Shown in pieces: positions 26,897 through 49,062 of a DNA stretch of 64,000 nucleotides. Positions within the stretch are counted from its first letter, which is position 1. Each line of letters starts with the position of its first letter. The stretch is from Desulfoscipio sp. XC116 (lineage in GTDB: Bacteria > Bacillota > Desulfotomaculia > Desulfotomaculales > Desulfallaceae), in assembly GCF_039851975.1 (NCBI RefSeq), contig NZ_CP156660.1, positions 248,001 through 312,000 on the forward strand, written 5' to 3'. A program made the translations under genes and the position numbers. Below the pieces are notes generated by a model that ran no database searches, was not told the DNA's origin, and saw only the letters and a list, made by a program, of their open reading frames with translations.

Positions 26897-26933
26897 ATTG
26901 TATTCCAAAGCATGGAAAAGGAGGGCGCCTTTG

Positions 26934-28535
26934 GTGAAAAGGTTCTGGAAAAGCGCCGCGGCGGCAGCAGTGCTTTGCTTCGGTTTATTGTTGGGCCCGG
27001 CTGGTTGCGGCGGCGATAAAGGGGACGATACCGAAAAAAAAGCCCCGGGGGATGAAACGTCCGGGCAGTCCGTGGTTATTCGTTTGCAGGGAGGGGATAC
27101 CGGTCTGCCCAATCCGTTTAAACATTACGTCAGAGGGCCCGGCCTTTCTAAAATGCAGCTTTTGTACGACTCACTTTTGGAAAAGGATGAGAACGGGGAT
27201 ATTTCCTGGCTCGCCGATAGTTGGAAAATCAGCGACGACGGCACGGAATATACCTTCAAGCTGAGGGATAATGTTGCATGGCATGACGGCCGGAGTTTAA
27301 CCGCCGAGGATGTGAAATTTACCTTTGAATACTATCGAGAGCATCCTCCTGTTTCCAACGATCTTATTGTTGACGGGAAATATATCGTTCAAGATATAGA
27401 GATTGTGGATCCGCAAACAGTTCGCCTGACAGTGGACGCTCCCAGCGCTTCGTATTTAAGCAAAATCGGCTACATGCGTATTTTGCCCCGTCATATATGG
27501 GGAAACGTGGAGGATCCCATGACCTTTACCGGGGCGGCGGCTACGGTGGGCAGCGGACCGTATGTTATGGAGGAATACGATGCTCAGCAAGGCATCTACC
27601 GATTCAAAGCTTTTGAAAAGTACTGGGGCCCCCGGCCCAGAGTTGATTTAATCGAATGGGTGCCGGTCAGCGATCCGATTCTGGCTTTTGAAAACGAGGA
27701 AATCGATTTGGTTAACGCCACGCCGGATGTTTTGTCCCGTTATGAAAACAATCCTGAATACAAGGTAGAGAAAAAGCATTCTTTTCATAATTACAGGTTG
27801 ATGATGAATATGGAAAAACGCCCCGAGCTAAAGGACGTCAATATCAGAAAAGCTATTGCCTGCGCTATTGACCGGAATGAGCTGATGGAAAAGGTGGAGA
27901 GGGGTTCGGCTGTTATCGGCAGTATGGGTTACGTGCCCGAGGGAAGCAAGTGGTATAACGGCAATACGGCGAAATATCCCTATGACTTGCAAAAGGCGCG
28001 GGAATTGTTGGTCGGGCGGCAACTATCCTTTAATGTGCTGGTGGGCAATACCGACAAAGAGGTTAAAATTGCCGAATTGATAAAATTAACCCTTGAACAG
28101 GCAGGTATAAAATTGACTATCGAAAGTGTGGACAGTAAAGTGCGGGATACCGCCGTTCAACAGGGTGAATATGAATTGTCGATAATCAATTCCGGCGGCA
28201 TGGGCGGCGATCCCGATTATTTAAGGAATTTGTATGCTTCCAACCCCAAGGCCAAAAGCAAGGGACTGGGTTCTGGGGCGGTGCCGGGATATTATAATGA
28301 ACGGGTGCGGACGCTGGCGCTGCGGCAGGCGAGGGAATTGGACCCGGAAAAAAGAAAGAAGACAATCTTCGAACTGCAGGAACTGATTGCGGAAGAGGTG
28401 CCGATGATCCTTCTATACGGCCAGGTGGACAACCATGTGTATCGGCCGGCTAAATACGACGGCTGGATGTTCCGGTACGATCATACCAAAACAGATCATT
28501 GCAAGCTGTCTTATCTGGAGCGAAACGGGGCATGA
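26934..28535 (+). CDS. ABC importer solute-binding lipoprotein, family 5
   Basis: The GTG start at 26934 follows AGGAGG at 26919-26924. The 533-residue product begins with a lipoprotein signal: basic start, hydrophobic stretch and a lipobox ending GPAGC, with Cys at about residue 25. The rest matches family 5 periplasmic-binding proteins (DppA/OppA/NikA), including WHDGRSLTAEDVKFTFEYYR and the AIACAIDRNEL segment. It would capture a peptide, nickel complex or metallophore outside the cell. Its stop overlaps the start of the first permease gene. The Fur sites favour a metal-linked ligand. Confidence 0.88.
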   Translation: MKRFWKSAAAAAVLCFGLLLGPAGCGGDKGDDTEKKAPGDETSGQSVVIRLQGGDTGLPNPFKHYVRGPGLSKMQLLYDSLLEKDENGDISWLADSWKISDDGTEYTFKLRDNVAWHDGRSLTAEDVKFTFEYYREHPPVSNDLIVDGKYIVQDIEIVDPQTVRLTVDAPSASYLSKIGYMRILPRHIWGNVEDPMTFTGAAATVGSGPYVMEEYDAQQGIYRFKAFEKYWGPRPRVDLIEWVPVSDPILAFENEEIDLVNATPDVLSRYENNPEYKVEKKHSFHNYRLMMNMEKRPELKDVNIRKAIACAIDRNELMEKVERGSAVIGSMGYVPEGSKWYNGNTAKYPYDLQKARELLVGRQLSFNVLVGNTDKEVKIAELIKLTLEQAGIKLTIESVDSKVRDTAVQQGEYELSIINSGGMGGDPDYLRNLYASNPKAKSKGLGSGAVPGYYNERVRTLALRQARELDPEKRKKTIFELQELIAEEVPMILLYGQVDNHVYRPAKYDGWMFRYDHTKTDHCKLSYLERNGA

Positions 28536-29488
28536 AAAGGTATTACCTGATGACTTTGCTGGTCATACTGGTTCTTAATTTCTCTTTGCCCAGATTGATG
28601 CCGGGAGATCCTTTTCTATACCTGTCGGTTGAGGACGGGCACACCGGCGTCACTTTCACCGAAGAGCAGATTGCCCAATATAAAGCTTATTACGGTCTGG
28701 ATAAGCCGGTTTATCTGCAGTTTTTTAGCTATATAGGCAATTTGCTCCGCGCTGATCTCGGCTATAGTATTTATTTCAACACCGGCGTGATGGAAATCAT
28801 ATCTACCCGGATTCTCTGGACAGTGTCCATAGTATTGTGCGCTATTGTCATCAGCTGCTTTTTAGGAACGCTAATGGGGGGCATATCGGCCTGGTATCGA
28901 GATGGTCCGGCGGATAAACTGCTTTATCCGGGCATGGTTATTTTTTCCGAGATACCCTCTTTTCTGATGGGAGTGTTTCTTTTATTCGTATTCGCCGCCA
29001 GGCTGGGCTGGTTCCCCATGGCCGGCGGCGTTACTCCCTTTGCCGAGTTTAATAGCGCGGCGGAGCAGGTACGGGATATTGTCCGGCATGGCGCGCTTCC
29101 GGTAATAACTCTGTCCCTGTCCAGACTGGGAGGATTTTATCTGCTGTCCAGAAACAGTATGCTGAATGTGCTTTCCCGGGATTATATGCGGACGGCCAGG
29201 GCCAAGGGCCTGAAAAGTCTGCGGATAATTTTCAAGCACGCCCTGAAAAACGCTTTGCTGCCTATAGTAACCAGGGTTTTTATGAGCTTGGGGACTGTTT
29301 TCGGGGCGGCGGTTTTGGTGGAGAACGTCTTCAGCTACCCCGGTGTGGGCCGGTTGATTGGAGAGGCGGTAATGGTGCGGGATTATGTTTTAATTCAGGG
29401 CGTTTTCTTTTTTATAACCATTACCGTGCTTACAATGAACTGGCTGGCTGATTTATTATACCGAAAATTAGACCCGAGGATAAGTTAA
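28532..29488 (+). CDS. ABC importer permease, DppB/NikB type
   Basis: ATG 28532 overlaps the stop of the binding-protein gene (ATGA). The 318-residue protein has about six membrane spans, an external loop after the first span (MPGDPF, then a YGLDKPVYLQF segment) and the cytoplasmic EAA loop near residues 215-235 (RDYMRTARAKGLKSLRIIFKHA), which couples to the ATPase. It is a typical DppB/OppB/NikB inner-membrane permease. It works with the next permease and the double ATPase of the same operon. Confidence 0.9.
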   Translation: MKRYYLMTLLVILVLNFSLPRLMPGDPFLYLSVEDGHTGVTFTEEQIAQYKAYYGLDKPVYLQFFSYIGNLLRADLGYSIYFNTGVMEIISTRILWTVSIVLCAIVISCFLGTLMGGISAWYRDGPADKLLYPGMVIFSEIPSFLMGVFLLFVFAARLGWFPMAGGVTPFAEFNSAAEQVRDIVRHGALPVITLSLSRLGGFYLLSRNSMLNVLSRDYMRTARAKGLKSLRIIFKHALKNALLPIVTRVFMSLGTVFGAAVLVENVFSYPGVGRLIGEAVMVRDYVLIQGVFFFITITVLTMNWLADLLYRKLDPRIS

Positions 29489-29489
29489 T

Positions 29490-30326
29490 ATGCGTTTTCT
29501 CCTTAAGACGTTGCGTGATATGAGCGGTTTTGGTAAATTTGGTTTGGTTGTCATTTTGTTGGTGCTGTTGTTGGGGATATTCGCCCCGTTGCTTTGCGAA
29601 TATCCCCATAAAATACCGTCCGGCGCTGCGCTGGAACCTCCGGGTTCCGAACATTGGCTGGGTACCGACGACCTGGGTATTGACCTATGGGCGCAAATTT
29701 GTCATGGAGCCGGAATAAGTATGTTGATTGGTTTCGGTACGGCGCTGTTGGCCGGATGCGGGGGCGGAGCGCTGGGTATTGCGGCCGGTTATTACGGCAA
29801 GAAAATCGATGGGCTGATCATGGGCGTTTGCAACATTATGATGGTGATTCCGCAACTGCCGCTGATGATCGTGTTGGGCGCTTTTTTCGGCCCCAGTCTG
29901 AAGAACATTATTATTGTCATAGCTGTTTTCGCTTGGACCGGTCCGGCCCGGACGGTGCGCTCGCAAATTTTAGCCATGTGCCGGGAAAAGTATATCATTG
30001 CGGCCCAAAGTTTCGGGGCAAGTTTCGTTCATTTGGCGGTCAAGCATTTTATTCCCGGTGTTTTGCCCGTGCTGATGGTCGGCATCATTCATATTGTCGG
30101 CAGGGCCATCGTAGCGGAAGCCGGGTTGGCCTTTCTGGGACTGGGGGACCCGACATCCAAAAGCTGGGGCCTGATACTGAACCGTTCCATCAATTTTCCG
30201 GGTATCTATTTCACGGATTATTGGCATTGGTGGGTGCTGGCCCCCTTGTCTTTCTTGACCCTGCTGGTGCTGTCCATTGCTTTTGTGGGCAGGGATTTGG
30301 AGAAAACGGCTAATTCCAAACTGTAA
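29490..30326 (+). CDS. ABC importer permease, DppC/NikC type
   Basis: A 278-residue protein with about six membrane spans, the HWLGTDDLGIDLWAQICHGA segment typical of the DppC/OppC/NikC N-terminal region, and an EAA loop (REKYIIAAQSFGASFVHLAVKHF). It begins one base after the stop of the other permease gene. Together the two permeases form the channel of the importer. Confidence 0.9.
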   Translation: MRFLLKTLRDMSGFGKFGLVVILLVLLLGIFAPLLCEYPHKIPSGAALEPPGSEHWLGTDDLGIDLWAQICHGAGISMLIGFGTALLAGCGGGALGIAAGYYGKKIDGLIMGVCNIMMVIPQLPLMIVLGAFFGPSLKNIIIVIAVFAWTGPARTVRSQILAMCREKYIIAAQSFGASFVHLAVKHFIPGVLPVLMVGIIHIVGRAIVAEAGLAFLGLGDPTSKSWGLILNRSINFPGIYFTDYWHWWVLAPLSFLTLLVLSIAFVGRDLEKTANSKL

Positions 30327-30337
30327 AGAGGTGATTT

Positions 30338-32056
30338 ATGATGCAACCGGTTTTACGGGTTAAAGATCTGTCGGTCCGTTATGGCCATACGGAAGGGGAA
30401 AGCATAATCGCGGTGCGCAGGATAAATTTTGCGCTGGAGCCGGGGACTGTTACCGGTGTTATCGGGGAGTCGGGTTGCGGAAAATCTTCCCTGGCTTTGG
30501 CGTTGATGGGGTTGTTGAAAAAACGGGCCCGGGTGCAAGGGGAAATTTTTTATGGGCCCACAGATTTGAACCGGCTGTCGGAACAAGAATGGAATCAGTA
30601 TCGCTGGAGCAAACTGGCCATTATCTTCCAAAACAGTTTGGATATCCTTAATCCCGTTATGACTATCGGTGAGCAAATAGGGGAAGCTATGCGGCGTCAT
30701 ACCTCGCTGACGGGGACGGAAATACGCGCCGGATTGGAAGAATTATTAAAGATGGTGGGGCTGGACCCGGTCTTCGCCAAAAGCTACCCGCATCAATTGT
30801 CGGGGGGGATGCGCCAAAAGGTACTGATAGCCATGGCCTTATCCTGCGAACCCGAAGTTTTGATTGTGGATGAGCCGACAACGGCTTTGGACGCCGTTGC
30901 CAAAGATGAGATTGTCGAACTCTTGCTTGGATTGCAGCGGAAAATGGCATTTCCCATGCTGGTCATATCCCATGAAATGCAGGTTATTATGCGGATGACC
31001 TCTCGCTTGATGGTCATGTACGCCGGGAATGTAGTGGAGGAGGGGCTGACCGGGGAAATCTTTAAAAATCCCATGCATCCTTACACGCGGGGTTTAATGT
31101 ATTCTTCTCCCGCGGTAAATCCATACCGGGATTTATGGGGCATCCCCGGCGAGGCGGGCCGGGAGAGTGAGGGGCAATGTCCATTTTGCCGCCGCTGCAA
31201 TCAGTGCGTTGAGCGGTGCGCCAAAGAACATCCGGAATTGTCACGATTGCCATGCGGCAGGAAAGTGTCCTGCCTTCGAGGCGGTATTGTTACTTTGCTG
31301 GAGGGTAGGAATTTGCATAAAAGCTATCATTGGCGGGGCGGTGAAATAAAGGCCTGCAGCTCTTGCGATATTTGTGTCAAATCAGGTGAGGCGGTGGTGC
31401 TTATCGGGGAGTCGGGTTCGGGTAAAACTACTCTTGCCGAGATTTTGGCCGGTATTATGAAAGCGGAACAGGGACAGGTGCTGTTTGAAGGGCAGATTGT
31501 CACGGGACATAGTCATACGGCCCGCAAAGGGGGTATGCAAATTGTTTTTCAGGATCCTCTGTCTGCTACCAGTGAGCGGCTCACCGTTGAAGATGTGGTC
31601 CGGGAACCGTTGGATATATTACATGCGGATAGCAAGGAGCAGCGCCGGGAGAGTGTCAGACAGGCGTTGAAGGATGTTCAACTGCCCCGGGACGCCGATT
31701 TCCTGTCCCGGAGGTGTTATATGCTGAGCGGGGGGCAACGGCAGCGTGTGGCCATCGCCCGTTGCTTGGTTATGGAGCCCAAGCTGTTGATTGCCGATGA
31801 GATCAGTTCCATGCTGGACCCCTCCACTCAAGCTAATATTTTAAGGTTGCTTAAAGGCCTGCAAAATTCCAAAGGCTTTGCTATGCTTTATATTACTCAT
31901 GATTTAACTATGGCGCAAAAGATAGCCGATCGGATATATGTAATGCGGCGGGCCGAAATTATTGAAAGGAAACCGGCCGGGGATTTTTTTTGCAACCCCG
32001 GGGAAAGACAAGCGCCAATGCTTTTGCAATGTGCGGGAATTAAGTGCGGGAATTAG
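30338..32056 (+). CDS. ABC importer double ATPase, DppD-DppF fusion
   Basis: Two complete nucleotide-binding domains lie in one 572-residue chain. The first has Walker A GESGCGKSS near residue 45, signature LSGGMRQK and Walker B VLIVDEPTTALD, followed by the oligopeptide-transporter C-terminal Cys cluster (CPFCRRCNQCVERC). The second has Walker A GESGSGKTT near residue 355, signature LSGGQRQR and Walker B LLIADEISSMLD. Most family 5 importers use two separate ATPase genes (D and F), so this is a fusion that secures a heterodimer. An RBS AGAGGTGA precedes the start. Confidence 0.9.
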   Translation: MMQPVLRVKDLSVRYGHTEGESIIAVRRINFALEPGTVTGVIGESGCGKSSLALALMGLLKKRARVQGEIFYGPTDLNRLSEQEWNQYRWSKLAIIFQNSLDILNPVMTIGEQIGEAMRRHTSLTGTEIRAGLEELLKMVGLDPVFAKSYPHQLSGGMRQKVLIAMALSCEPEVLIVDEPTTALDAVAKDEIVELLLGLQRKMAFPMLVISHEMQVIMRMTSRLMVMYAGNVVEEGLTGEIFKNPMHPYTRGLMYSSPAVNPYRDLWGIPGEAGRESEGQCPFCRRCNQCVERCAKEHPELSRLPCGRKVSCLRGGIVTLLEGRNLHKSYHWRGGEIKACSSCDICVKSGEAVVLIGESGSGKTTLAEILAGIMKAEQGQVLFEGQIVTGHSHTARKGGMQIVFQDPLSATSERLTVEDVVREPLDILHADSKEQRRESVRQALKDVQLPRDADFLSRRCYMLSGGQRQRVAIARCLVMEPKLLIADEISSMLDPSTQANILRLLKGLQNSKGFAMLYITHDLTMAQKIADRIYVMRRAEIIERKPAGDFFCNPGERQAPMLLQCAGIKCGN

Positions 32057-32665: not shown

Positions 32666-33178
32666 TTGCTCCTAATGACAAATGTAGACAACATCAATGC
32701 CGATCAGGTTCCCTATCTTATAGAACAGCTTATGGCCAAGGGGGTAAAGAATGTCCATGTTGTTAATGCTGTAACCAAGAAAGGGAGGCAGGAATATATT
32801 TTTTTTATTGATGTTCAGCAGGACAAGGTTTTTTCAATTAGCCGCTTTCTTGCCAGTGAAATAGGGACGCTGGGAGTAAGAATAATCAAGGCAGATCATA
32901 TCTCGTACGATTATTTCATGAAGAGTATGAAGCTAAGTTTACATGACAATAAAGAGAATCTCGTATGGAAAGGGGCGGTGCAGGTCAAGATTGTCCAAGA
33001 TGATTCGGGTTCTCCTTTGTCCGCCCGTGTTGAATATGAGGATTTGAAAGCATCTGTCAAGGCTATTAATACGGCGGGAGCGGATATATCTTTTTACGAG
33101 CTTAAGCAAATGATTGAAAATGAGGCGCTAAATAGATTAAGGAAAAGTAAATTTGCAATTCGGATTGAGGACGATTGA
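32666..33178 (+). CDS. larC2: LarC2-like domain protein (nickel-pincer cofactor)
   Basis: This 170-residue protein matches the C-terminal part of LarC: TNVDNINADQVPYLIEQLMA corresponds to the conserved T/E-x-NIDDM stretch, followed by the SEIGTLGVRII segment. LarC inserts nickel into the bis-thiocarboxylated pyridinium nucleotide in a CTP-dependent way; the LarC2 part holds the CTP-binding cyclometallase core. In many bacteria larC1 and larC2 are joined by a programmed frameshift or fused; here LarC2 is a separate gene upstream of larB, away from LarC1. Start TTG 32666 fits the GGGAGG spacing; ATG 32675 is possible. Confidence 0.65.
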   Translation: MLLMTNVDNINADQVPYLIEQLMAKGVKNVHVVNAVTKKGRQEYIFFIDVQQDKVFSISRFLASEIGTLGVRIIKADHISYDYFMKSMKLSLHDNKENLVWKGAVQVKIVQDDSGSPLSARVEYEDLKASVKAINTAGADISFYELKQMIENEALNRLRKSKFAIRIEDD

Positions 33179-33212: not shown

Positions 33213-33965
33213 GTGGACAGAAAAGAATTGCACGCACTTTTGGAGTCTTTAGTCGCCGGCAGTACCACCGTAAATCAGGCTATAAAGAAATTGGAATTCT
33301 TGCAGTATGAAGACATAGGCTATGCTCGCCTGGACCACCACCGAGAACTTCGCACCGGTTTTCCTGAGGTTGTATTTTGTCAGGGCAAGACCCCGGAGCA
33401 AGTGGGAGGTATTATTTCTAGATTGGCGGCGAATGGCAGACCGATTTTGGGTACACGGGCCTCTGCTGAAGCTTACGTAATGGTCCGGAAGACTCTCCCC
33501 GAGGCTGTGTATTATGATATGGCCCGCTGTATTGTAGTGCCGGCAGGGGAAGAGAGAGAAGAAAAGGGAGAGATCGTGATTGTCAGCGCGGGGACGGCGG
33601 ATATGCCGGTAGCGGAGGAGGCGGCAGTGTCCGCAGAAACTATGGGGTTAAGGGTAACAAGGCTCTATGATGTGGGTGTCGCCGGAATTCACAGGTTATT
33701 GCAGCATGTCGAAAAATTACAAAAAACAAATGTCGTGATAGCTGTGGCCGGCATGGAAGGGGCTTTGGCAAGCGTTGTCGGCGGGCTTACCAGTCGTCCT
33801 GTAATCGCTGTACCTACGAGTATCGGATATGGAACCAATTTTGGGGGACTTTCAGCGCTTCTTTCAATGCTGAACAGTTGTGCCTCAGGGGTGGGAGTAG
33901 TTAATATTGATAATGGCTTCGGAGCGGCAGCTTTGGCGCGGGCCATAGTCCAATCAGGGAGGTAG
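33213..33965 (+). CDS. larB: LarB, pyridinium-3,5-biscarboxylic acid synthase
   Basis: The 250-residue protein has a PurE/AIR-carboxylase-like C-terminal half (VIVSAGTADMPVAEEAAVSA, then VVIAVAGMEGALASVVGGL and PVIAVPTSIGYG) after the LarB N-terminal region (YARLDHHRELRTGFPEVVFC). LarB carboxylates and hydrolyses nicotinic acid adenine dinucleotide as the first step of nickel-pincer nucleotide synthesis. GTG 33213 follows GGAAGGAG. It lies between the LarC2 and LarC1 genes with tight spacing, so the three form one operon. LarE, the sulfur donor, is not in the window. Confidence 0.92.
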   Translation: MDRKELHALLESLVAGSTTVNQAIKKLEFLQYEDIGYARLDHHRELRTGFPEVVFCQGKTPEQVGGIISRLAANGRPILGTRASAEAYVMVRKTLPEAVYYDMARCIVVPAGEEREEKGEIVIVSAGTADMPVAEEAAVSAETMGLRVTRLYDVGVAGIHRLLQHVEKLQKTNVVIAVAGMEGALASVVGGLTSRPVIAVPTSIGYGTNFGGLSALLSMLNSCASGVGVVNIDNGFGAAALARAIVQSGR

Positions 33966-33972
33966 AATACGG

Positions 33973-34836
33973 ATGAAAGTTATGTATTTGGATTGTAGTG
34001 CCGGAATCGCAGGCGATATGTTTTTGGGAGGGCTGTTTGACGCAGGGGTCGATCCGGATTTGGTTAGAAATGGTCTGGCCGGCCTGAATCTCAGCGGTTA
34101 CGAAATGCGTGTCGAGAAAGGAACAAGCCATGGAATAGCTGCCAATAGTGTTCAATTTAACGTAGTTGAGGAACAGCCTCATCGTTATCTTAAAGATATT
34201 ATGACCCTAATTGAGGCCGGCAATTTTTCGGAGAATGTTAAAAGTTCAGCCGGAAAAGTATTTTCCCTTCTTGCCCAAGCCGAGGCGAAGGTTCACGGGA
34301 CAACCCCGGATAAAGTGCACTTTCATGAAGTCGGAGCGATTGATTCGATTTGCGATATCATAGGAACTCTGCTTGCAGTCGAAAGTCTGGAAGTGGAAAG
34401 AATTATCTGCTCCCCGCTTTCTTTGGGGAGTGGACATGTACACTGTGCTCACGGCCGAATTCCAGTTCCCGCGCCGGCGACGCTTGAAATAATCAAAGGA
34501 GTTCCGGTGCGCAAAAACGATATTGAGGGTGAACTGGTGACACCTACGGGCGCCGCCTTGGCTGTGACGTTAAGTCAGGAATTTTCCTCTTTGCCTTCCA
34601 TGATTATTGATTCCGTAGGATATGGGATGGGCACCAGGGACTATGGATTTCCAAGTGTCTTGCGGGTTATTATCGGGCGGTCTTTGAAGAAAAACGGGTC
34701 AAAATATCACGCTGAACTGGAACGCAGTGCTAACCACCCCCATACCCATGACCACTTCCATGTTCATAAACATGCCCACGAGCATAAGCACGACCACGAC
34801 CATGAGCACGAGCGGTTAAGCCGGAAGAGAGGATAA
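33973..34836 (+). CDS. larC: LarC1, nickel-insertion protein with His-rich tail
   Basis: A 287-residue protein that starts MYLDCSAGIAGDMFLGGLFD, the signature of LarC (DUF111), and has the VHFHEVGAIDSICDI motif near residue 120. It ends with a histidine-rich tail of about 30 residues, alternating His with Asp, Glu and Lys, as seen in nickel chaperones. The C-terminal cyclometallase domain is not fused but is encoded by the LarC2 gene 0.8 kb upstream. It would act in the cytoplasm to place nickel in the pincer cofactor. Confidence 0.88.
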   Translation: MKVMYLDCSAGIAGDMFLGGLFDAGVDPDLVRNGLAGLNLSGYEMRVEKGTSHGIAANSVQFNVVEEQPHRYLKDIMTLIEAGNFSENVKSSAGKVFSLLAQAEAKVHGTTPDKVHFHEVGAIDSICDIIGTLLAVESLEVERIICSPLSLGSGHVHCAHGRIPVPAPATLEIIKGVPVRKNDIEGELVTPTGAALAVTLSQEFSSLPSMIIDSVGYGMGTRDYGFPSVLRVIIGRSLKKNGSKYHAELERSANHPHTHDHFHVHKHAHEHKHDHDHEHERLSRKRG

Positions 34837-35024: not shown

Positions 35025-36806
35025 ATGGAGAAAGAGATTTTGGCGGTAATAGGTGCGGTTAACTCCAACGTGCAGAATTCGACGAGCGACCGGATCGAAG
35101 CGCTTACCAAAGGTCATGGTATGCTGAACCTTGCCGTAATGGCGGCTGCCAATGCAATGGCAACCCAAATACTGAACGGAAGAAGCATAAAGATATCGGA
35201 TGATAATTTCGTAGAATTGCCTTTGGACGGCGTTTTAAAGGCCGGAATTGATGCTGCCAAAGAAGCGGGGGCGGATAAAGCCAATGCCGCGCTTATTGGC
35301 GCAGTATTGCTTAATTTGGCCGGAACGGCGTCCAGGGCCGGGGTTCCTGCCGGAAACAGGAAGCTGGGCGCCATGGCCCGTATGATTGCCGGGGCCGATC
35401 GTGCGGGGGTGGCGTCAATTCCTACCTCCAAATTAACTTGCAAAGTGTCAGGGTTTGCGGCGGTGAAGGCTTTATACGACGCTATGGAAAAAGGCGAATT
35501 GGTTCGGGTAGACGGAGCGGATGTTCCGGCATTTGTATCCGGCGGCGCTCTTTATGGTCATAGTGTCTTGGGTGAGGATATGACTTATGTCGACCTGGCC
35601 TTAAACGGGACGAAAATTGCCGTGGAAGGTATGAAGAAGGCTTATCGCGGTGTAGGAATTAGTCCCAGCCCCATTATGTGCGCCATGCTGGCGGCGGCGG
35701 CGGTTTTGGAAATTATCAATCCCGATGGCATGATTGATGAACAATATGGCGAATTCTTCGTGAGAAACACAGGATATCTGGCGGGGAAAGGCGCGGCCGA
35801 GGCTGCCGGACTTCCGGAAAAAGTACATCTACGCGGAACCGGCAAAGAGTATGAGACCGCTACATTGATTGGGGATTTGGGGATGATCCTCAAGGATGTG
35901 GGCTCTCCTACAGTGGTTGGGATGATGACGATCAATGAAATGCTGGCCGCTTTCTCGGAAGCCCCAATGATTGGTTCAGGTTTCGGCGGTGGTCCCGTTA
36001 ATCCTCCTCTGGCGCACCTGGTATCGGACACAGTAGTTTCCATGAATGCCGTGCTTGATTGCAAAGGCGATATGGATGCCGCTGCCGATATCTTACACCG
36101 GATGAAAGCAACAGAATGGTTTGATCCGGAGGTTGCGGCTTTTTGCGCCAATACGGTTGCTCATAAAGGGGAGCAGGTGCGGAGAGGTCCGGTTACACGG
36201 GTTATTATCAAGGCTACCGAAGGAGTTCGTATGAACGCGCTCTATACCCGTGCACAAAGAACTTATAATGATTTAAAAGCAGGCAAGAAATTGGATGATA
36301 TTTGTCGGGCGCTGGACCTTGAAAGACAGGCCAGAGTTGAGGAAAATGCCGGAAAAATATTTACGGCCATGTTCGGACAGGAGATACAAATCCATTTTAC
36401 CAAGCTGGCAGGCGGTGCCCATCGCAGTCATCCCTTTGCGCGTAAATATTGGGGATTTGACGCCGATATTGATGCAGAGGTTACTATCGGCGGCCAGAAA
36501 ACAGTCCTGACAGGAGTATCTCATAAAGTAGTCCCTGATGCTGTTTTAAACAAGAAGGCCGAGCTTTCCACGCCTATCACCGTTGCTGCGGCAGTCGCGC
36601 AGGAGCTGATGTACATCGGAGTTTGCACTATTAACGTGGTTGTTCCGGCCGCAATGGCAGCCGCTATGGGTGTGGAAACTTGGGAAGACGCCGGAAAAAT
36701 TGCCGAGAAAGGCGGCTACATCACGGCTGCTATCCCCGGCGCCAAAGACAGTGCCCGCGAAGTGGCGAAAGCGGCAATAAGGATGATGCAGGATCTTAAC
36801 TTCTAA
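35025..36806 (+). CDS. Unrecognised 593-residue protein
   Basis: ATG 35025 follows GGGAGGT. The protein is soluble in composition, rich in Ala and Gly, with no membrane span, no signal and no motif I can name. Conserved-looking spots include [19 protein letters not shown] near residue 325, an [17 protein letters not shown] stretch near 465 with several His, and [19 protein letters not shown] near the end. A decayed copy of its C-terminal part lies at 56030-56500, so it belongs to a family with at least two copies here. Its place behind larC2-larB-larC1 makes it a candidate client of the nickel-pincer cofactor; this is inference, and it is not LarA. Confidence 0.75.
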
Positions 36807-36849
36807 TTGATCTCGTTAACCGCCGCTAAGGCTTCCGCAAAAGCGGAAA

Positions 36850-36910
36850 GGGGACACTCCTCAGCTAATAGGTCAAGCTTTGGGGTCGAGGAATGTTCCC
36901 AACTAATGGA
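36850..36910. repeat. Intergenic repeat unit, copy A
   Basis: A 61-base unit starting GGGGACAC and ending CAACTAATGGA, about 80% identical by eye to copy B at 36960-37020. The ends (GGGGACACTCCT and AGGAATGTTCCC) can fold on each other. It lies after a small hairpin TTCCGC-AAAA-GCGGAA at 36833-36848. Confidence 0.7.
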
Positions 36911-36959
36911 GTTAAGCGGCGATGAACTCGAAATAAGTGCGACTAAGGTTTAGCGGTCG

Positions 36960-37105: not shown

Positions 37106-37169
37106 AGTTCCCCATGCGAAAGAACTATCCGCGGAAAACCAAGTTTAAACAAGGGAAGGGGTGATTTGG

Positions 37170-38138
37170 TTGAGTCTTTGGGTGAAAGTGGGAGCCCGTT
37201 TGCACCTCGGTCAACTCGACCTTAACGGTTCCTTAGGGCGTTTATACGGAGGACTTGGTTTAGCTATTGATCAACCTTGCTTGGAGATTACTGCGGAGAA
37301 AAAAAATGATTTGGTTATTCTTGGCCCGGAAAAGGAGAAAAAAAGACTGCAGCGGCTGGTCCGTAAATATCTGGACTTTTATGGGCTTCCCGGAGTCAGG
37401 CTCGAACTGTTGGAATCTTTGCCGATGCACAGCGGGTTAGGCTCAGGAACTCAGCTTGCTTTGGCTGTAGGTTTTGCGATAACAAGAGTCTACGGATTAG
37501 CCCCGGCGGTAACGGAGTTAGCGGTCATAACGGACCGGGAAGGCAGCCGCTCCGGGATTGGCGTAGCGGCATTTGAACAAGGGGGCTTTTTTATCGATGG
37601 AGGTATGTGCACCAACATAATAAGACAAACAGGTCTTTTTGAAGTTCCGCCGATTCTTGCTCGAACGCCATTCCCCGAAGAATGGGCAATTATTCTGGCT
37701 TTACCTCACAAGGAAGAGGAGATGTTCGGTCAGGAAGAAGTAAAGGCCTTCGCTTCCTTGCCGCCGATGGCGGAAGAGATATCCGGGATGATCTGCCGGC
37801 TCTTGCTGATGAAACTGCTTCCCAGTCTGATGGAGAAAGATCTGGTGAGTTTCGGACAAGCTGTGACAGAGATTCAGAAACGAATTGGCAGCCATTTCAC
37901 ACCTGTTCAGGGAGGCATCTATGCTTCAAAAGCAGGAGCCGATGTTGCGGCGTATCTACTTAGGCAAGGTGCTGCCGGAGTTGGCCAAAGTTCCTGGGGA
38001 CCGACGATTTACGCTTTTACCAGTCGGGACAAAAAAACGGACTTATTGGAAAAGACCCGGAATTTTTTAGGGAAAAGAGGGCTAGTTTGGACAGCCTCAG
38101 GCAGGAATCAAGGAGTGAGCTGGGGGTGGAAGGAGTAA
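37170..38138 (+). CDS. Beta-ribofuranosylaminobenzene 5'-phosphate synthase
   Basis: This 322-residue GHMP-superfamily protein matches beta-RFAP synthase: N-terminal ARLHLGQLDLNGSLGR, the glycine-rich phosphate loop LPMHSGLGSGTQLALAVG near residue 95, GSRSGIGVAAFEQGGFF, and GVGQSSWGPTIYAF near the end. It joins 4-hydroxybenzoate-derived or 4-aminobenzoate units to PRPP with loss of CO2, the first committed step of H4MPT synthesis. I prefer TTG 37170 to GTG 37161 because AAGGGGTGA lies at the correct distance. It opens the C1/cofactor cluster. Confidence 0.88.
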   Translation: MSLWVKVGARLHLGQLDLNGSLGRLYGGLGLAIDQPCLEITAEKKNDLVILGPEKEKKRLQRLVRKYLDFYGLPGVRLELLESLPMHSGLGSGTQLALAVGFAITRVYGLAPAVTELAVITDREGSRSGIGVAAFEQGGFFIDGGMCTNIIRQTGLFEVPPILARTPFPEEWAIILALPHKEEEMFGQEEVKAFASLPPMAEEISGMICRLLLMKLLPSLMEKDLVSFGQAVTEIQKRIGSHFTPVQGGIYASKAGADVAAYLLRQGAAGVGQSSWGPTIYAFTSRDKKTDLLEKTRNFLGKRGLVWTASGRNQGVSWGWKE

Positions 38139-38142
38139 CAAA

Positions 38143-38697
38143 ATGACAGATCAGAACCTACACCCTAAAGTTGCTTGGGGAATTACAGGAGCGGGACATT
38201 ACCTGTCGGATTGTATTGAATTGCTGACTGGGCTGAAGTCGGCCGATATCTTTCTTTCGGATGCCGGGAAAGAAGTGTTGAATTACTACGGCTGGTATGA
38301 ACGATTAATAAGTTCCGGTCATTCTTTGATTCGGAAAACTGGAGCCAGTTGTTTACCCGTTACCCGACTGTACACGGGAAAATACGATCTGGTCATTATT
38401 GCCCCGGTTACTTCTAATACGATCGCCAAAATGGCCTGCGGTATAGCGGATAATCTTATCACTAACCTATTTGCGCATGCCGGCAAATGTCGGATTCCGA
38501 CGATCCTTTTACCTTGTGATTCCATGGCTGAAATGAAGTCCCTGACGCCGCAAGGCAAACAGGTTTTGATCCATACCAGAGAAATAGACCGGGAAAACAT
38601 TGTCCGGCTGTCTAATTGGCGTATGGTCACTCTGGTAGATGATCCTCAGCAGCTGAAGAATCTGATCACACGGTATGATGCGGAAAGACAGGGGTGA
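38143..38697 (+). CDS. Flavoprotein of H4MPT cluster (dihydromethanopterin reductase-like)
   Basis: A 184-residue protein of the flavin-dependent Cys-decarboxylase/archaeoflavoprotein fold, with GITGAGHYLSD at the N terminus, VIIAPVTSNTIAKMACGIAD in the middle and a Cys-containing PTILLPCDSMAEM segment. In H4MPT clusters such proteins are thought to reduce dihydromethanopterin to H4MPT (DmrB-like). It is 4 bases downstream of the beta-RFAP synthase gene and overlaps the start of the next frame, so they are cotranscribed. The exact reaction is inferred from context. Confidence 0.75.
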   Translation: MTDQNLHPKVAWGITGAGHYLSDCIELLTGLKSADIFLSDAGKEVLNYYGWYERLISSGHSLIRKTGASCLPVTRLYTGKYDLVIIAPVTSNTIAKMACGIADNLITNLFAHAGKCRIPTILLPCDSMAEMKSLTPQGKQVLIHTREIDRENIVRLSNWRMVTLVDDPQQLKNLITRYDAERQG

Positions 38698-38702
38698 TCC
38701 GT

Positions 38703-40106
38703 ATGGAAAAATATGTGTTCGTTACGGGGCAAATTGCTCATAAAGCTCTTCTCCAGGTAAGCGGGAAAATAAATTCGATTCAACCGGAAATCAAGTGCCT
38801 GCGCTGCACAGTGGCGGCACTTATGTCCACAAAGTTTATCGCCAGGGAACTGGCCCGCGAAGGAGGATTTAGCGGACAGGAAATTATCGTTATTCCGGGT
38901 CTGTGCCAGGGATCGCTGCAGCCGATTCGGGAAGCCACAGGCCGTAAAGTGCTCAGGGGTCCCAAGGATTTGATTGATTTGCCCGCCTTTTTTCAAAAAG
39001 GGCAGAGCAATGCTTCCGAAAACGCGATTGCTGATACTGTTTCGCCGATCCGGATCTTGGCGGAGATCGTCAATGCACCGCGGATGACGGAAAAGGAGAT
39101 TCTGGAAAAAGCGATTTACTATCGGAACAGCGGTGCGGATTTCATTGACCTCGGAGGGGATGTAGACCAGCCATTCCCACGCTTGCAGCGAGTTATTCAT
39201 ATGCTGAAAAGCGAAGGCTTTAAGGTAAGTGTCGACAGCCATCAAAAGGAAGATATTTTGGCCGCTAGTCAGGCCGGAGCCGACTTGATTTTAAGCCTTA
39301 CTTCAGAAAATCTGGAACTGGCCAAGGTTTTGAATTGTCCGGCCGTCATCATACCGGATGATGGGGAAAACCTGGATTCTCTGTATGGAAGCATGCAGAA
39401 ATTGGACCAATGGAAGATTCCCTATCTTGTCGATCCTATCCTTCCCCCTTTGACCATGGGGTTGGCTGAAGGGATCGGGCGTTATCTCAAGGTGCGCAAA
39501 GAATTTCCTGATTGTGAGATGCTGATGGGATTGGGAAATGTGACCGAGCTTACGGATGCGGACAGCACGGGCCTCAATGCCCTTCTGATTGGTATTGCCG
39601 GTGAACTGAGAGTTCACCATATCCTGACCACGGAAGTCAGCCACAGAGCACGGGGAGCCGTACGGGAAATCAGCTTGGCGCGCCGCTTGATTCATCAGGC
39701 TCTCAGCGAGCGGAGAGTGCCGAAATACATGGATGAAAGCTTGCTGACCATCAAAGACCCGGGCGGGAACTCCTTTAATAAAGCCCAGCTTTGGGAAATG
39801 CATCAGGTGATCCGGGACAGAAATTACCGTATTTTTGTGGATGATCAGATCTATGTGTTTAATGCTCATTGCTTTATTCAGGGGAGCACGGCTCAGGAGG
39901 TGTTTGCCAAGCTGGACATTCGCGATTCAAGCCATGCGTTTTACCTGGGAAAAGAGCTGGGCAAAGCGGAACTCGCTTTGCAGTTAGGCAAAAAGTATAC
40001 ACAGGATAATCCGCTGAACTGGGGTTATCTAAATGCGGAGAGCAGCAGGAATATTCAAAATGACGAAAATAACAAGAGCAATAGGGAAAAGAGGGTCTCC
40101 TTATGA
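38703..40106 (+). CDS. Dihydropteroate synthase-related protein
   Basis: The 467-residue protein has an N-terminal DUF6513-like domain (YVFVTGQIAHKALLQ) and a C-terminal TIM-barrel related to dihydropteroate synthase, with DFIDLGGDVDQPFPR and KVSVDSHQKEDILAA near residues 150-190. In methanogens and H4MPT-using bacteria this protein is linked to the coupling of the pterin with beta-RFA-P. ATG 38703 is preceded by AGGGGTGAT; the GTG at 38694 overlaps the previous stop and is less likely. Its stop overlaps the next start (ATGA). Confidence 0.85.
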   Translation: MEKYVFVTGQIAHKALLQVSGKINSIQPEIKCLRCTVAALMSTKFIARELAREGGFSGQEIIVIPGLCQGSLQPIREATGRKVLRGPKDLIDLPAFFQKGQSNASENAIADTVSPIRILAEIVNAPRMTEKEILEKAIYYRNSGADFIDLGGDVDQPFPRLQRVIHMLKSEGFKVSVDSHQKEDILAASQAGADLILSLTSENLELAKVLNCPAVIIPDDGENLDSLYGSMQKLDQWKIPYLVDPILPPLTMGLAEGIGRYLKVRKEFPDCEMLMGLGNVTELTDADSTGLNALLIGIAGELRVHHILTTEVSHRARGAVREISLARRLIHQALSERRVPKYMDESLLTIKDPGGNSFNKAQLWEMHQVIRDRNYRIFVDDQIYVFNAHCFIQGSTAQEVFAKLDIRDSSHAFYLGKELGKAELALQLGKKYTQDNPLNWGYLNAESSRNIQNDENNKSNREKRVSL

Positions 40107-40735
40107 TCATCGAAACGATCTTGTCTTCGCTCAACGAGGACGGCGAGGTGAATTTTGCACCAATCGGGGTTCATGTTTCCGATCATACCGAGTGGCTTTC
40201 AGAAGTGGAAGAAATAGAGATCTTCCTTTATTCCGGCTCAAAGACCTTCTCCAATCTCCGGGCCAGACCGGAGGGAGTGATCAATTTGACCGATGACCTA
40301 TTGAGCTTTGTCGATACGGCGCTTTACTCCGGGATTCTGCCGACACATCCCTCCGATCAGGTTCGACCGCCCCGCATGGCTGGAGCGAAGCTCATTTGGG
40401 AATTCGCGGTGACCTCTTTTGACGATTCCAGAGAGCCTGCCAAAGTGACCGGAAAGATCTTGCTTTTTAGAGAACTGAGCAGTTTTACCGGGCTTTGCCG
40501 GGCTCACGGGGCTATTCTCGAGGCGGCGATCACCGCCACTCGTCTGACCTGGATTCCAGCGAGCAAAGTAACTGATTCCTGGCCACTTTGGCAGCAAGTC
40601 GTGGAAAAGACCGGGGGCGGAAAAGAAAAAGAAGCCTTTGCGAAAATCACCGATTATTTTTGCCAACAGGGTATTAAGGTCAGGGGACACACCTCCTTTC
40701 TAAGGTCAGGGGATACACCTCCTCATTGGGAATAA
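40103..40735 (+). CDS. DUF447 family protein, repeat-extended C terminus
   Basis: A 210-residue protein of the DUF447 family (IIETILSSLNEDGEVNFAPI at the start, RPPRMAGAKLIWEFAV in the middle), which binds FMN in archaeal relatives and accompanies H4MPT genes in methylotrophs. Its role is unknown. The last 18 or so residues (from GHTSFLRSGD) are encoded by GGGGACA-type repeat units and do not look like the family, so the original stop appears to have been replaced by a repeat insertion. The start overlaps the previous gene by four bases. Confidence 0.8.
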   Translation: MIIETILSSLNEDGEVNFAPIGVHVSDHTEWLSEVEEIEIFLYSGSKTFSNLRARPEGVINLTDDLLSFVDTALYSGILPTHPSDQVRPPRMAGAKLIWEFAVTSFDDSREPAKVTGKILLFRELSSFTGLCRAHGAILEAAITATRLTWIPASKVTDSWPLWQQVVEKTGGGKEKEAFAKITDYFCQQGIKVRGHTSFLRSGDTPPHWE

Positions 40736-40803
40736 TTATAAGCTGCTTGGAGGAATGTCCCCGTTAAAGAAAAATTATAAGTGGCTCGAAGGAATGTCCC
40801 CAT
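40683..40803. repeat. GGGGACA/TGTCCCC repeat cluster
   Basis: Two rightward ends (GGGGACACACCTCC at 40684 and GGGGATACACCTCC at 40708) face two complementary ends (GGAGGAATGTCCCC and GAAGGAATGTCCCC) near 40750-40803, so nested hairpins can form. They resemble the ends of the repeats at 36850-37020. The left part lies inside the DUF447 coding frame; the right part precedes the mtdB RBS. Confidence 0.65.
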
Positions 40804-40827
40804 TAATTGAACGAGGAGGATTTACGA

Positions 40828-41691
40828 ATGAAAAAGATTTTGCTTCACTTGGAAGCGGATTCCCAAGCCAGTGTTTTCGACCAAATCACCGCTTATGACG
40901 CCGGGGCCGATCAGGTGCTGGCATACGGGGGAGTGCGCTTGGAGGAAGTGACCAATCTTGTCTATGGCGCCATGTTTACCAGGGGGGGAGAAGGATTACG
41001 CAATACGGCCATCTTCATCGGCGGTACCCATGTTCCGACTGCCGAGGCACTTCTGAAAAAAGTACGGGAAACTTTTTTTGGCGATGTCCGGGTTTCCGTG
41101 ATGTTCGATGCCAACGGATCCAACACAACGGCAGCAGCCCTGGTTCATAAAATTGCTTATGGCCGGAACCTTAAGGGGAAAAAGGCTCTGATTCTTGCCG
41201 GTACCGGCCCGGTTGGCATCCGGGCCGCAATCCTTCTGGCCAAGGAAGGCTGTGAGGTTTATCTTTCTTCCCGGCAATTGGAGCGGGCCCGGGAAGTCGG
41301 AAAACATATTCTGAAGAACAACGGGGTGGAGATTATCCCGCTTGAGATCGGGGAAGCGAAAGATGTTTCAGCGGTACTGAAGCGGGGAATTAACATTGTG
41401 GCTTGTTGTGGGGCCCCCGCTGTGCAAATGTTGGATTTAGCGAGCTGGTCCACCGCAACCGGCCTGGAAATCATTGCGGATATCAACGCCGTCAATCCGC
41501 TGGGAGCGGAAGGGATTAAGGTGACGGACGATGGCAGGGAAAGGGAAGGGAAGATTATCTACGGCGCTATTGCTATCGGCAATCTAAAGATGAAGGTGCA
41601 TCGAGCCGCCGTTCGGACTTTATTTGAAAGTAACCGGCATGTCCTGGATTTCGACTCGATATATGAGATCGCCAAGAAGATGGAGGCTTAA
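40828..41691 (+). CDS. mtdB: Methylene-H4MPT dehydrogenase, NAD(P)-dependent
   Basis: ATG 40828 follows GAGGAGG at 40813-40819; the product is 287 residues. The N-terminal half (LLHLEADSQASVFDQITAYD) and the Rossmann motif GTGPVGIRAAILLA near residue 125 match the MtdA/MtdB family, and the VMFDANGSNTTAAA and AVNPLGAEGI segments are typical. It interconverts methylene-H4MPT and methenyl-H4MPT with NAD or NADP, the entry step of the pathway that continues with Mch, Ftr and Fwd encoded downstream. Cofactor preference cannot be decided from the sequence alone. Confidence 0.9.
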   Translation: MKKILLHLEADSQASVFDQITAYDAGADQVLAYGGVRLEEVTNLVYGAMFTRGGEGLRNTAIFIGGTHVPTAEALLKKVRETFFGDVRVSVMFDANGSNTTAAALVHKIAYGRNLKGKKALILAGTGPVGIRAAILLAKEGCEVYLSSRQLERAREVGKHILKNNGVEIIPLEIGEAKDVSAVLKRGINIVACCGAPAVQMLDLASWSTATGLEIIADINAVNPLGAEGIKVTDDGREREGKIIYGAIAIGNLKMKVHRAAVRTLFESNRHVLDFDSIYEIAKKMEA

Positions 41692-41692
41692 A

Positions 41693-42895
41693 TTGATTCT
41701 GGTGGTTGGGGCAAGCGTAAGAGCACTAATGGAATCCGCGGCGGAATCAGGAAAAGCTGTGATCGGGCTCGACTTTTTTGGAGATGTGGATGCCAATTGG
41801 CAAGGAAAAGCGATGAGCCTGACCGGTGACTATGGTTTGCAGCCAACTGTGCTCAACTTGCTGGAAACTGCCAGAAGTATTTCATGTGAGGCATTGGTCT
41901 ACGCTTCGGGTCCGGAGAACACCCCGGAGGGACTGGCGTATTGGGAGAACCCGGGGCGACTTCGGGGCAACAGTGTATCGGCGCTGATGAGGGTGCGCAA
42001 TCCCTGGGAACTCAGAACAAGTCTGGGGAAGATCGGAGCACGGATGCCACCGTTCTTTTCCCTTGAAGAGTGGACTTGGCTTCCGGGCAAAAAGATCTGG
42101 CTGTTAAAGCCGTTGAATAGAGGCGGTGGGTATGGAATTCAGGTGTTGCCCCAAAATAAGGAAGCGGCTGAAGTGCTGCTTTCCGGCTTGAAGCAACCGG
42201 CCCATTTCAGGATCGAAGAATATAAAACCGGAATTCCGGGGTCAATTACGTTCCTGGCCAACGGCTATAGGGCAGTGGTCTTGGACAGCAGCCGCCAGCT
42301 TTCCGGGGAAGGAAGCTGTCACAGGACATTTCGTTATCAAGGCAATATCGTTCCATTGGATCTTTCAGGAATTATCCCTTTAGATTATTTTGAGGATCAA
42401 ATTGCGCAGGCAGTCCAACAGCTTACGGAAAGCTTTGCCTTGAGAGGAGTCAATACCCTGGATTTTATCGTCAGCGAGGAGGGAATCTGGTTTTTGGAAC
42501 TGAATCCCCGCTGGTCCGCCTCTGTGGAACTGATTGAGAAGTCTCGGGGCCGGCGTTTTTTCGCCTGGCATCTGGCTGCTTGTGAAGGAGCGGATTTAAC
42601 AGCGTTCAGGGAATCCCTGGAATTAAAGACGTTGGGATTAAAGCGTTCCGCCCGGCCCCAAATTTTTTGGGGCAAACGCATTGTTTATGCTCGGACTCCC
42701 GGTATTATCGGCAGATACGACGATAAATCGCTGCGCTTTTTATACCGGCAGGGGGTGCGTGACATTCCCCGGGAAGGGACAAGGCTTGAGAAGGGACAAC
42801 CTATTTGTACGGTGCTGGCGGAAGGCAGCTCCGACCAGGAGTGTGATCTGAAATTGCGGGCCAAGGCCATATGGATTGGGCAATATTTTGGATAG
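41693..42895 (+). CDS. ATP-grasp protein of H4MPT/methanofuran cluster
   Basis: A 400-residue protein starting at TTG 41693, six bases after GGAGG. The N-terminal Rossmann-like part (ILVVGASVRALMESA) is followed by an ATP-grasp fold with the Mg-binding end NTLDFIVSEEGIWFLELNPR near residue 265, and a C-terminal domain of about 80 residues. ATP-grasp enzymes join a carboxylate to an amine or thiol through an acylphosphate. Homologues are found in H4MPT gene clusters of methylotrophs, where the step is not settled. Candidate roles are a late ligation in H4MPT or methanofuran synthesis. Confidence 0.75.
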   Translation: MILVVGASVRALMESAAESGKAVIGLDFFGDVDANWQGKAMSLTGDYGLQPTVLNLLETARSISCEALVYASGPENTPEGLAYWENPGRLRGNSVSALMRVRNPWELRTSLGKIGARMPPFFSLEEWTWLPGKKIWLLKPLNRGGGYGIQVLPQNKEAAEVLLSGLKQPAHFRIEEYKTGIPGSITFLANGYRAVVLDSSRQLSGEGSCHRTFRYQGNIVPLDLSGIIPLDYFEDQIAQAVQQLTESFALRGVNTLDFIVSEEGIWFLELNPRWSASVELIEKSRGRRFFAWHLAACEGADLTAFRESLELKTLGLKRSARPQIFWGKRIVYARTPGIIGRYDDKSLRFLYRQGVRDIPREGTRLEKGQPICTVLAEGSSDQECDLKLRAKAIWIGQYFG

Positions 42896-42952
42896 ACGAG
42901 CGATGTTCATTCGTTAAGATCGGAAAAGTGCATGGATGAAGGAGGGAGGCCA

Positions 42953-43315
42953 ATGGGCAGCATTTCTGGATTATTGATTACGGTTCGTACCAGTCGACAA
43001 GGGGCGGCGATGGAAAAAGGTAAATTTTGTGATGAGTATATACGAGAAATATCCACTCTGGCTGTAAGTCCTGAAGACTTTGCGCTGCTTCATTTAGAGC
43101 AGGGCAATAAGGCTTTGCTGAAAAGCGCAGCCGGAGAGATCACGGTAACCTGTCGCCCTAAAGAAGGACCGCAAGGGCTTTTCTTTCTTCCTTTGGGACC
43201 TCTGGCTAACCGGCTGATAAGTGGAGAGACCTATGGTACAGGAGTTCCTGATTTTAAAGGGATTTCCGTAGTGCTCTCATCTCTGAAGCCGGATGGGCGG
43301 AAATTAGATGAATAA
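42953..43315 (+). CDS. fwdD: Formylmethanofuran dehydrogenase subunit D
   Basis: The 120-residue protein starts at ATG 42953 behind GGAGGGAGG. It matches the molybdopterin-dinucleotide-binding FwdD/FmdD subunit: TVRTSRQGAAMEKGKFCDEY at the start, LFFLPLGPLANRL in the middle and GTGVPDFKGI near the end. In methanogens this subunit completes the Mo/W-bis-pterin site together with FwdB. The hydrolytic Fhc complex of methylotrophs has no separate FwdD, so its presence here supports a redox-active enzyme. The assignment rests on motif agreement in a short protein. Confidence 0.8.
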   Translation: MGSISGLLITVRTSRQGAAMEKGKFCDEYIREISTLAVSPEDFALLHLEQGNKALLKSAAGEITVTCRPKEGPQGLFFLPLGPLANRLISGETYGTGVPDFKGISVVLSSLKPDGRKLDE

Positions 43316-43397
43316 GCAAGGAAGGATACAAAGGCATTGAAATTTAAAATTTAAAATTTAATTCGAAACAGTTTTACCGGATTAAGGGGGGAGAGAA

Positions 43398-44711
43398 ATG
43401 GCGCTGACTGTTCATGAAGATGTCGTTTGTACGTTTTGCGGCTGTCTTTGTGATGATCTTAAAGTGGAGGTCGCGGATAATCAGATTGCCAAGGTTAGCA
43501 ATGCCTGTGCAATAGGCCGGAACAAGCTGATGCACGCGCAAACGGATTTGGCCTCGTTTCGGGTAAATGGCAGGGAGGCCACCTGGGAAGAGGTGATCTC
43601 TGAAGCGACTAATATTCTAAACCGAGCCAAGGCTCCACTGGTTTATGGCTTAAGCAGTACGACAACTGAGGCCGTCAGAGAAGCAGTAGCCTTAACGGAG
43701 AAGATCAAAGGGACGATTGATAACCCAGCGTCATATTGACACGGGCCGGGCGTTCTCGCCCGCCAGCAAGTTGGGCTGGCTTCATGTACCTTAGGGGAAG
43801 TAAAAAACAGAGCCGATCTTTTGATTTATTGGGGCGCCAATCCCGTGGAATCCCATATGCGTCATTTAAGCCGATATTCTGCTCTGGCTAAGGGACTTTA
43901 TGTTCCGGAAGGGCGCAAAGGGAGGAAGGTCGTAGTCATTGATATCAGGCCGACCCCAACAGCGAAGAATGCAGACCTCTTTATTCAAGTCACTCCGGGT
44001 CAGACTTTTGAAATCGCCCATGTTTTGCGTTGCCTGGTCAAGGGCATTCGTTTGGAAGGGTTGACGGAGACTAGTCTGGTCGGCGGCGTTCCTTTATCCC
44101 AATGGCGCGAATTGGCGGAAATGATGAAACAATGTCGTTATGGAGTGCTCATGTTCGGCATTGGAGTGACGCAAAGCCGGGGTAGAGAGCTGAATATTGA
44201 AGAAATCAATACGTTGGTCAATGAAATGAACCGCTATACCCGTTTTTATGCCATTGCTATGCGGGGGCACGGCAACGTGAACGGGAGTAACCATGTTTTG
44301 GCGTGGCAGACCGGCTATCCTCTGGCGGTAAACTTTTATCGTGGTTACCCTCGTTATAGTCCGGGCGAATTCAGTGTCGTGGATATGCTGATGCGTCAAG
44401 ATGTGGATGCAGCTCTGATTGTAGCCACGGACCCGGGTGCTCATTTGCCGGAGCAAGCTGTCCGGTATCTGAAGAGCATCCCGACCATTGTGCTTGAGCC
44501 GCACGAAAGCTTAACCACGACCTGGGCTAATGTAGTCATCCCTGTCGCTCCGGCCGGAGTGGGTGTCGAAGGGACGTTCTACCGAATGGATAATGTTGCC
44601 CTTCGTTTAAAAAAATTGGTTGATTTCCCATATCCCTCCGATTTGGAAGTTCTGCGGGAGCTAAAGGAGAGAGTAAGTTATGTTGAAAATTGTGAACGGT
44701 CGGATTTATGA
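43398..44711 (+). CDS. fwdB: Formylmethanofuran dehydrogenase subunit B, selenoprotein
   Basis: A single frame from ATG 43398 to the stop at 44709-44711 is interrupted only by TGA 43737-43739 (codon 114). Around it the product reads NPASY-U-HGPGVLARQQ, which aligns with the FwdB site where Cys or Sec binds Mo or W. The rest of the chain continues without frame change (GEVKNRADLLIYWGANPVE). N-terminal CTFCGCLC plus NACAIG supply the four [4Fe-4S] cysteines. The 437-residue length is normal. It reduces CO2 to formate or the reverse, which FwdA joins to or removes from methanofuran. The gene overlaps fwdA by 32 bases. Confidence 0.9.
43737..43739 (+). other. In-frame TGA, probable selenocysteine codon
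   Basis: TGA occurs at codon 114 of fwdB with open frame of high similarity to the family on both sides. Methanogen FwdB proteins of some species (Methanopyrus, Methanocaldococcus) have Sec at this metal-binding position, and others have Cys. Confidence 0.85.
43740..43785 (+). promoter_or_regulatory. Candidate bacterial SECIS element
   Basis: Directly after the TGA two perfect six-base stems can form: CGGGCG-UUCU-CGCCCG (43747-43762) and GCCAGC-AAGUUGG-GCUGGC (43762-43780). The loop of the second begins 28 bases after the TGA, within the distance known for bacterial SECIS hairpins; an alternative fold GCCC/GGGC (43758-43776) puts a G first in the loop. The stems share base 43762 and exclude one another in part. 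Confidence 0.65.
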
Positions 44712-49053: not shown

Positions 49054-49062
49054 GAGGCTGAG

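Follow-up and report, generated by a model that had tools for sequence, protein, structure and literature searches.

A conserved bacterial protein family linked to lar genes: a putative nickel-pincer nucleotide enzyme unrelated in sequence to LarA

Introduction

Every enzyme of the nickel-pincer nucleotide (NPN) for which we found a description is a member of the LarA superfamily (PF09861), which comprises lactate racemase and other 2-hydroxy-acid racemases and epimerases and is encoded together with larB, larC, larE and nickel transporters. LarA has a pair of catalytic histidines, a covalent lysine and a histidine that ligates the nickel. During its reaction the NPN transiently takes the hydride of the substrate (PMC7583248). 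In a 2024 study, about 15% of the genomes analysed had larB, larE and larC without a larA homologue, which implies that there are NPN-binding proteins other than LarA (PMC11796402). Our literature search of papers from 2024 on, with subscription journals mostly outside it, found no description of a non-LarA NPN enzyme. The H4MPT/methanofuran module (Fwd/Fhc, Ftr, Mch, MtdB), the second system to be compared here, is already known in Firmicutes, Synergistetes, Deltaproteobacteria and Chloroflexi (PMC5020050). Both systems meet around X593, a protein encoded in the window (the whole stretch of 64,000 nucleotides of Desulfoscipio sp. XC116 that was analysed).

Results

The X593 gene and its family

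X593 is judged to be a real gene, because its ORF is uninterrupted and has full-length homologues that are 40–82% identical. The sequence-only reading of this DNA had described an intact frame with a good ribosome-binding site and no recognisable family, lying after larC2-larB-larC1 and before an H4MPT cluster, and all of these points were borne out (Table 1). The 593 codons begin with ATG and are preceded by GGGAGG. Searches of X593 against Pfam and NCBIfam, and with phmmer against the PDB, gave no meaningful match; the profile matches in the PDB, to 7udk (a designed repeat) and 4h7l at E 2e-4 to 9e-4, are short or compositional.

Table 1. Features of the window around the X593 gene (nucleotide positions in the window; residue numbers for the protein motifs)
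Feature	Position	Strand	Remarks
NikA/Opp-type ABC importer	26853..32056	+	Substrate-binding protein, two permeases, fused ATPases
Stand-alone LarC2 paralogue (C-terminal half of nickel insertase)	32666..33178	+	PF01969 247-368
larB (pyridinium-3,5-biscarboxylic acid mononucleotide synthase)	33213..33965	+	252 bits to solved LarB 8soq/7mj0
larC1 (N-terminal half of LarC)	33973..34836	+	PF01969 1-235, 305 bits; His-rich tail
X593	35025..36806	+	593 aa, member of a new family, putative NPN-dependent enzyme
Invariant motifs of X593	Residues 106-115, 133-136, 178-185, 290-291, 319/323/331		GxPAxNRKxG, PTxK, GHxxxGED, KD, G319/G323/H331
Two 69-nt repeats	36842-36910, 36952-37020	+	Between X593 and H4MPT genes
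Terminator-like hairpin	37077-37106	+	Between X593 and H4MPT genes
H4MPT/methanofuran biosynthesis and C1 oxidation genes	37161..49974	+	Part compared with family models
FwdB-type gene	43398-44711		In-frame TGA (43737-43739), codon 114
Second-copy remnant of X593	56160..56490	+	C-terminal part only, with stop, degenerate
Molybdenum/tungsten cofactor riboswitch RF01055	62701-62822	+	63.6 bits

Relatives of X593 were found in Bacillota, Negativicutes, Desulfobacterota, Synergistota and Chloroflexi and on Rhizobiaceae plasmids, and together they form a conserved, previously undescribed protein family. The closest ones (63–82% identity) come from Gracilibacter, a Chloroflexi MAG, Desulfobacteraceae, Dethiosulfatarculus, Synergistota and Sporomusa. 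Two Synergistota copies are lower, at 55–58%, and those of Desulfofundulus, Desulfovirgula, the Rhizobium and Ciceribacter plasmids and two further Synergistota share about 40–45%. The distribution is patchy: two of 60 genomes in the first search, the window's own included, 4 of 113 genomes of the window's class, 2 of 395 Desulfobacterota and 14 of 185 Synergistota (two of these 14 fragmentary); the viral contigs searched contained no relative. Horizontal transfer is suggested, because the family tree departs from taxonomy, the window gene grouping with Sporomusa and the Chloroflexi gene with Desulfobacterota.

Second copies occur as well. The decayed copy in the window stands at the end of a run of methanofuran and pterin genes. 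In Sporomusa acidovorans a partial larC2-X593 pair lies upstream of the intact one (L061 11390-12380, L009 5-244), with MFS and enolase-superfamily genes between the two pairs.

Linkage of X593 to lar genes

The window neighbours of X593 are, by PF01969, the two halves of a split LarC nickel insertase, and the NSCASG motif is kept in the LarB between them. The upstream importer, whose best NCBIfam model is TIGR02294 (nikA) below its cut-off, is a candidate nickel importer; its cassette is also found beside X593 in Synergistota (L010/L092).

We then counted same-strand linkage at 28 X593 loci, using several tblastn queries for each gene; near-duplicates among the 28 are L010/L092, L082-L084 and five plasmids. 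A stand-alone larC2 is the most constant partner, within 1.9 kb of X593 and on its strand at 25 of the 28 loci, and the three loci lacking it are cut by a contig end that leaves at most 231 bases on one side. larB lies within 4 kb at 18/28 loci and larE within about 6 kb at 10/28, and tblastn found larA near X593 at none of the 28. The linkage is seen again and again, in Bacillota, Negativicutes, Desulfobacterota, Synergistota and Alphaproteobacteria, and persists across branches of the X593 tree; in some Synergistota larC2 alone adjoins X593 and the full LarC is elsewhere in the genome.

The arrangement is most compact on the Rhizobium and Ciceribacter plasmids, where X593, larC2, larC, larE, larB and a nickel permease follow each other with gaps of a few bases. 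This run is a lar operon with X593 in the place of larA, a place that it holds in complete lar sets. The annotation of Rhizobium sp. CCGE532 lists, in this order, a hypothetical protein (X593), LarC2, LarC, “adenine nucleotide alpha hydrolase” in the LarE position, LarB and a HoxN/NixA nickel transporter. The larE frame is single in CCGE532 and Ciceribacter and is split by a stop into two ORFs in R. tropici CIAT 899 and CCGE531 (L004 15607-16413, L108 13544-14350).

Nickel importers adjoin X593 in two unrelated forms, the NixA/HoxN type and the NikA/Opp type (below the nikA cut-off). Their presence would suit a protein that binds nickel or another metal by ligands of its own and shares the lar genes for nickel handling only, but LarB and LarE, which act on the nicotinate-derived ligand rather than on nickel, are linked too, and we regard this explanation as scarcely credible.

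The sequence-only reading had proposed either a new pincer-nucleotide enzyme or a C1-linked enzyme. Because the lar linkage spans phyla, including branches without the H4MPT pathway, the pincer-nucleotide reading is well supported and is now the primary one, and the homologues are found mostly in genomes that do carry lar genes.

The NPN pathway in X593 genomes

LarE scored above the curated cut-off in all 14 X593 genomes or records searched, and LarC was found in 13/14 and 10/11 genomes, the search giving no match in G633 and in the draft G114, either of which may be incomplete; LarB was counted at the loci. X593 therefore fills no missing step, and the pathway is predicted to be complete without it. 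A replacement of LarE by X593 was rejected on the same LarE count, X593 moreover having no PP-loop Pfam match. Genome-level co-occurrence of X593 and LarC in Synergistota is uninformative, since LarC is near-universal there (157/185), and adjacency alone counts.

Many X593 genomes have a separate full-length LarC besides the LarC pieces linked to X593. The linked LarC2 is a separate gene and is without the TTTLG(V/I)R-type motif that full LarC carries in its LarC2 part. These pieces look like a maturation set dedicated to X593.

LarA homologues are present in most X593 genomes, on other contigs or far from X593. Together with the constancy of the LarC2 paralogue, this could also mean that X593 serves in maturation or delivery and, with LarC2, modifies, stores or inserts NPN for those homologues. 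We consider such a role unlikely. LarB, LarC and LarE suffice for NPN synthesis (PMC11796402), and LarE was present in every X593 genome tested. X593 is rare where Lar is common, as the Synergistota counts show. Whole-record searches of the R. tropici and Ciceribacter plasmids found a lar set with X593 and no LarA. Finally, the substrate transporters and PLP enzymes beside X593 give its loci a catabolic look.

Conserved residues and predicted structure

Residues that do not vary among 21 diverse members include P108, A109, N111, R112, K113, G115, K136, H179, E184, D185, E229, D234, K290, D291 and H331, and H268 and K140 are nearly invariant. The histidines kept across the family are H179, H331 and, nearly, H268. 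The His-rich stretch singled out in the sequence-only reading is no family feature, the Rhizobium protein having KGARRSSKMA in place of its histidines, and it was rejected as a metal site because the motif is not conserved.

The AlphaFold2 model of X593, built from 11 sequences (pLDDT 78.5, pTM 0.83), is mostly helical, and three strands form a small element close to its C terminus. Stretches below pLDDT 50 (108-111, 136-141, 161-184 and 316-329) coincide with conserved loops; such loops may fit a site that closes on a missing ligand, and a shallow alignment could also cause them. Neither the whole protein nor its C-terminal part had a Foldseek match at E<=0.001, and the best Z values of a second structure aligner (7.0 and 4.9, respectively) are background. 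The profile search and structure prediction proposed at the outset have thus been run, and no known family or fold was matched. CinA, an NMN deamidase, handles a pyridine mononucleotide; part of X593 resembled it at Foldseek probability 0.2-0.33 and E ~1, and this likeness was rejected because the C-terminal domain folded alone gave no stronger match.

X593 and LarA both have conserved histidines and lysines, invariant in X593. In contrast, the two show no sequence similarity, differ in length (593 against about 425 amino acids), and only X593 comes with its own stand-alone LarC2 paralogue; its mostly helical model matches no solved structure. Homology by sequence or profile was rejected: PF09861 matched none of 14 members at E<=10, and hhalign gave a probability of 0.1%. 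It is still conceivable that X593 is a LarA homologue too distant for sequence comparison or Foldseek and performs ordinary 2-hydroxy-acid racemisation, as the gene context is the same, the cofactor is probably the same and the conserved residue types parallel the catalytic histidines and lysine of LarA. The failed profile comparisons and the mainly helical model make that highly improbable. LarA was not among the Foldseek and second-aligner matches listed for this model, whose weak loops leave room for a shared fold.

The C1 module beside X593

The genes downstream of X593 in the window encode a DHPS-like protein (TIGR00284), an MtdB-like protein, an FwdB-type protein with a TGA codon, an FhcA-type protein, FhcD/Ftr, FwdC and Mch. 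H4MPT/methanofuran genes also adjoin X593 in Gracilibacter, Desulfobacteraceae, Dethiosulfatarculus and several Synergistota (conserved in L006, L008 and L010-L013), and X593 lies beside mtdB on a Chloroflexi contig. FhcD, which marks the module, occurs in 15 of 25 X593 genomes or records and is clustered on the X593 tree (2 changes against 6.5 in shuffles). It was not found in Sporomusa, Desulfofundulus, Desulfovirgula, G037, G610, G633, G199, G114 and two plasmids.

Thus the proposed C1 link holds for one part of the family only. The C1 link is lineage-specific, because these other branches lack the module and lie beside amino-acid transporters and MalY/PatB lyases.

Fae, the formaldehyde-activating enzyme through which formaldehyde usually enters, was not found in 13 of the 14 X593 genomes searched, so the C1 unit enters by another route in most of the H4MPT lineages, and X593 could supply it in those that are Fae-free. 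X593 is none of the known enzymes of the module, and neither it nor 13 relatives matched PF08714 (Fae). The Fae count and the position of X593 within the H4MPT/methanofuran cluster of Bacillota, Desulfobacterota and Synergistota, as well as next to mtdB in Chloroflexi, might be explained by a C1-pathway enzyme, for example a Fae replacement, to which the lar linkage is incidental. However, the FhcD-free records (Rhizobium plasmids, Sporomusa, Desulfofundulus and Desulfovirgula) keep the lar linkage, and the sole Chloroflexi X593 genome does have Fae, which makes this very unlikely.

Two further observations concern the module genes. The in-frame TGA of the FwdB-type gene, at which the ORF listing splits the gene in two, recurs at codon 114 of the Gracilibacter gene (L006 13538-14848) and aligns exactly with a Cys of the Desulfobacteraceae homologue (SVCHGP); this codon probably specifies an active-site selenocysteine in a bacterial FwdB, the formylmethanofuran dehydrogenase B-type protein. 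A DUF2193 protein, a family described as archaeal, is encoded near X593 between larB and Fwd-type genes in one Synergistota genome (L085 4319-5854); a relationship of X593 to DUF2193 was rejected (hhalign probability 0.4%).

Transporters, PLP enzymes and RNA elements

In Rhizobium X593 adjoins an amino-acid ABC importer, a MalY/PatB lyase and RidA, and in Sporomusa an amino-acid permease and a MalY-type enzyme. MalY-type frames lie beside it in G633, TRAP-transporter-like genes and DUF169 in G610, and a sodium:solute symporter in the H4MPT-bearing G519. Because X593 adjoins transporters and MalY-type lyases, this context suggests that small acids, including amino acids, are imported and catabolised. 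For the Rhizobium protein, the MalY-type lyase raises the speculative possibility that the substrate comes from mimosine degradation.

The two repeats between X593 and the H4MPT genes are 78% identical, are spaced 110 nt apart and fold into hairpins. An Rfam search of the repeat region through the terminator-like hairpin (36842-37106) gave no match; the repeats are a possible tandem regulatory RNA.

Discussion

From its lar linkage, we infer that X593 is probably NPN-dependent, and it is likely to be the apoprotein that performs catalysis in a second class of NPN enzymes, a class unrelated in sequence to LarA. LarB, LarE and LarC would make the NPN, and the dedicated LarC2 paralogue would probably help to insert nickel or to deliver the cofactor to X593. 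Lysines K113, K136 and K290 are candidates for holding the cofactor, and H179, H331 and the nearly invariant H268 may be acid/base residues or nickel ligands. By analogy with LarA, the bound NPN would act as hydride acceptor and donor for a small imported acid, perhaps a hydroxy- or amino acid.

In the subfamily of the window, the product would join one-carbon metabolism at the level of formaldehyde or methylene-H4MPT; a C1-yielding reaction there is a tentative proposal. The full picture, a non-LarA pincer class of new fold with its own LarC2 escort and a hydride-driven C1 release to H4MPT or folate, in place of racemisation, in anaerobes that are nearly all Fae-free, appears somewhat unlikely as a whole.

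Several observations count against an NPN-dependent X593. First, it has no homology or fold match to LarA. Second, the LarA homologues elsewhere in most X593 genomes provide another user of NPN. Third, two of the genomes, G633 and the draft G114, gave no LarC match. Fourth, larC2 is the sole lar neighbour of X593 in some Synergistota, a phylum in which the near-universal LarC deprives plain co-occurrence of meaning.

X593 is a concrete and widespread candidate for an NPN enzyme outside the LarA superfamily. Its operons are compact in culturable hosts, namely on the plasmids of Rhizobium tropici CIAT 899 and CCGE532 and in Sporomusa acidovorans, and an E. coli co-expression system for NPN loading already exists.
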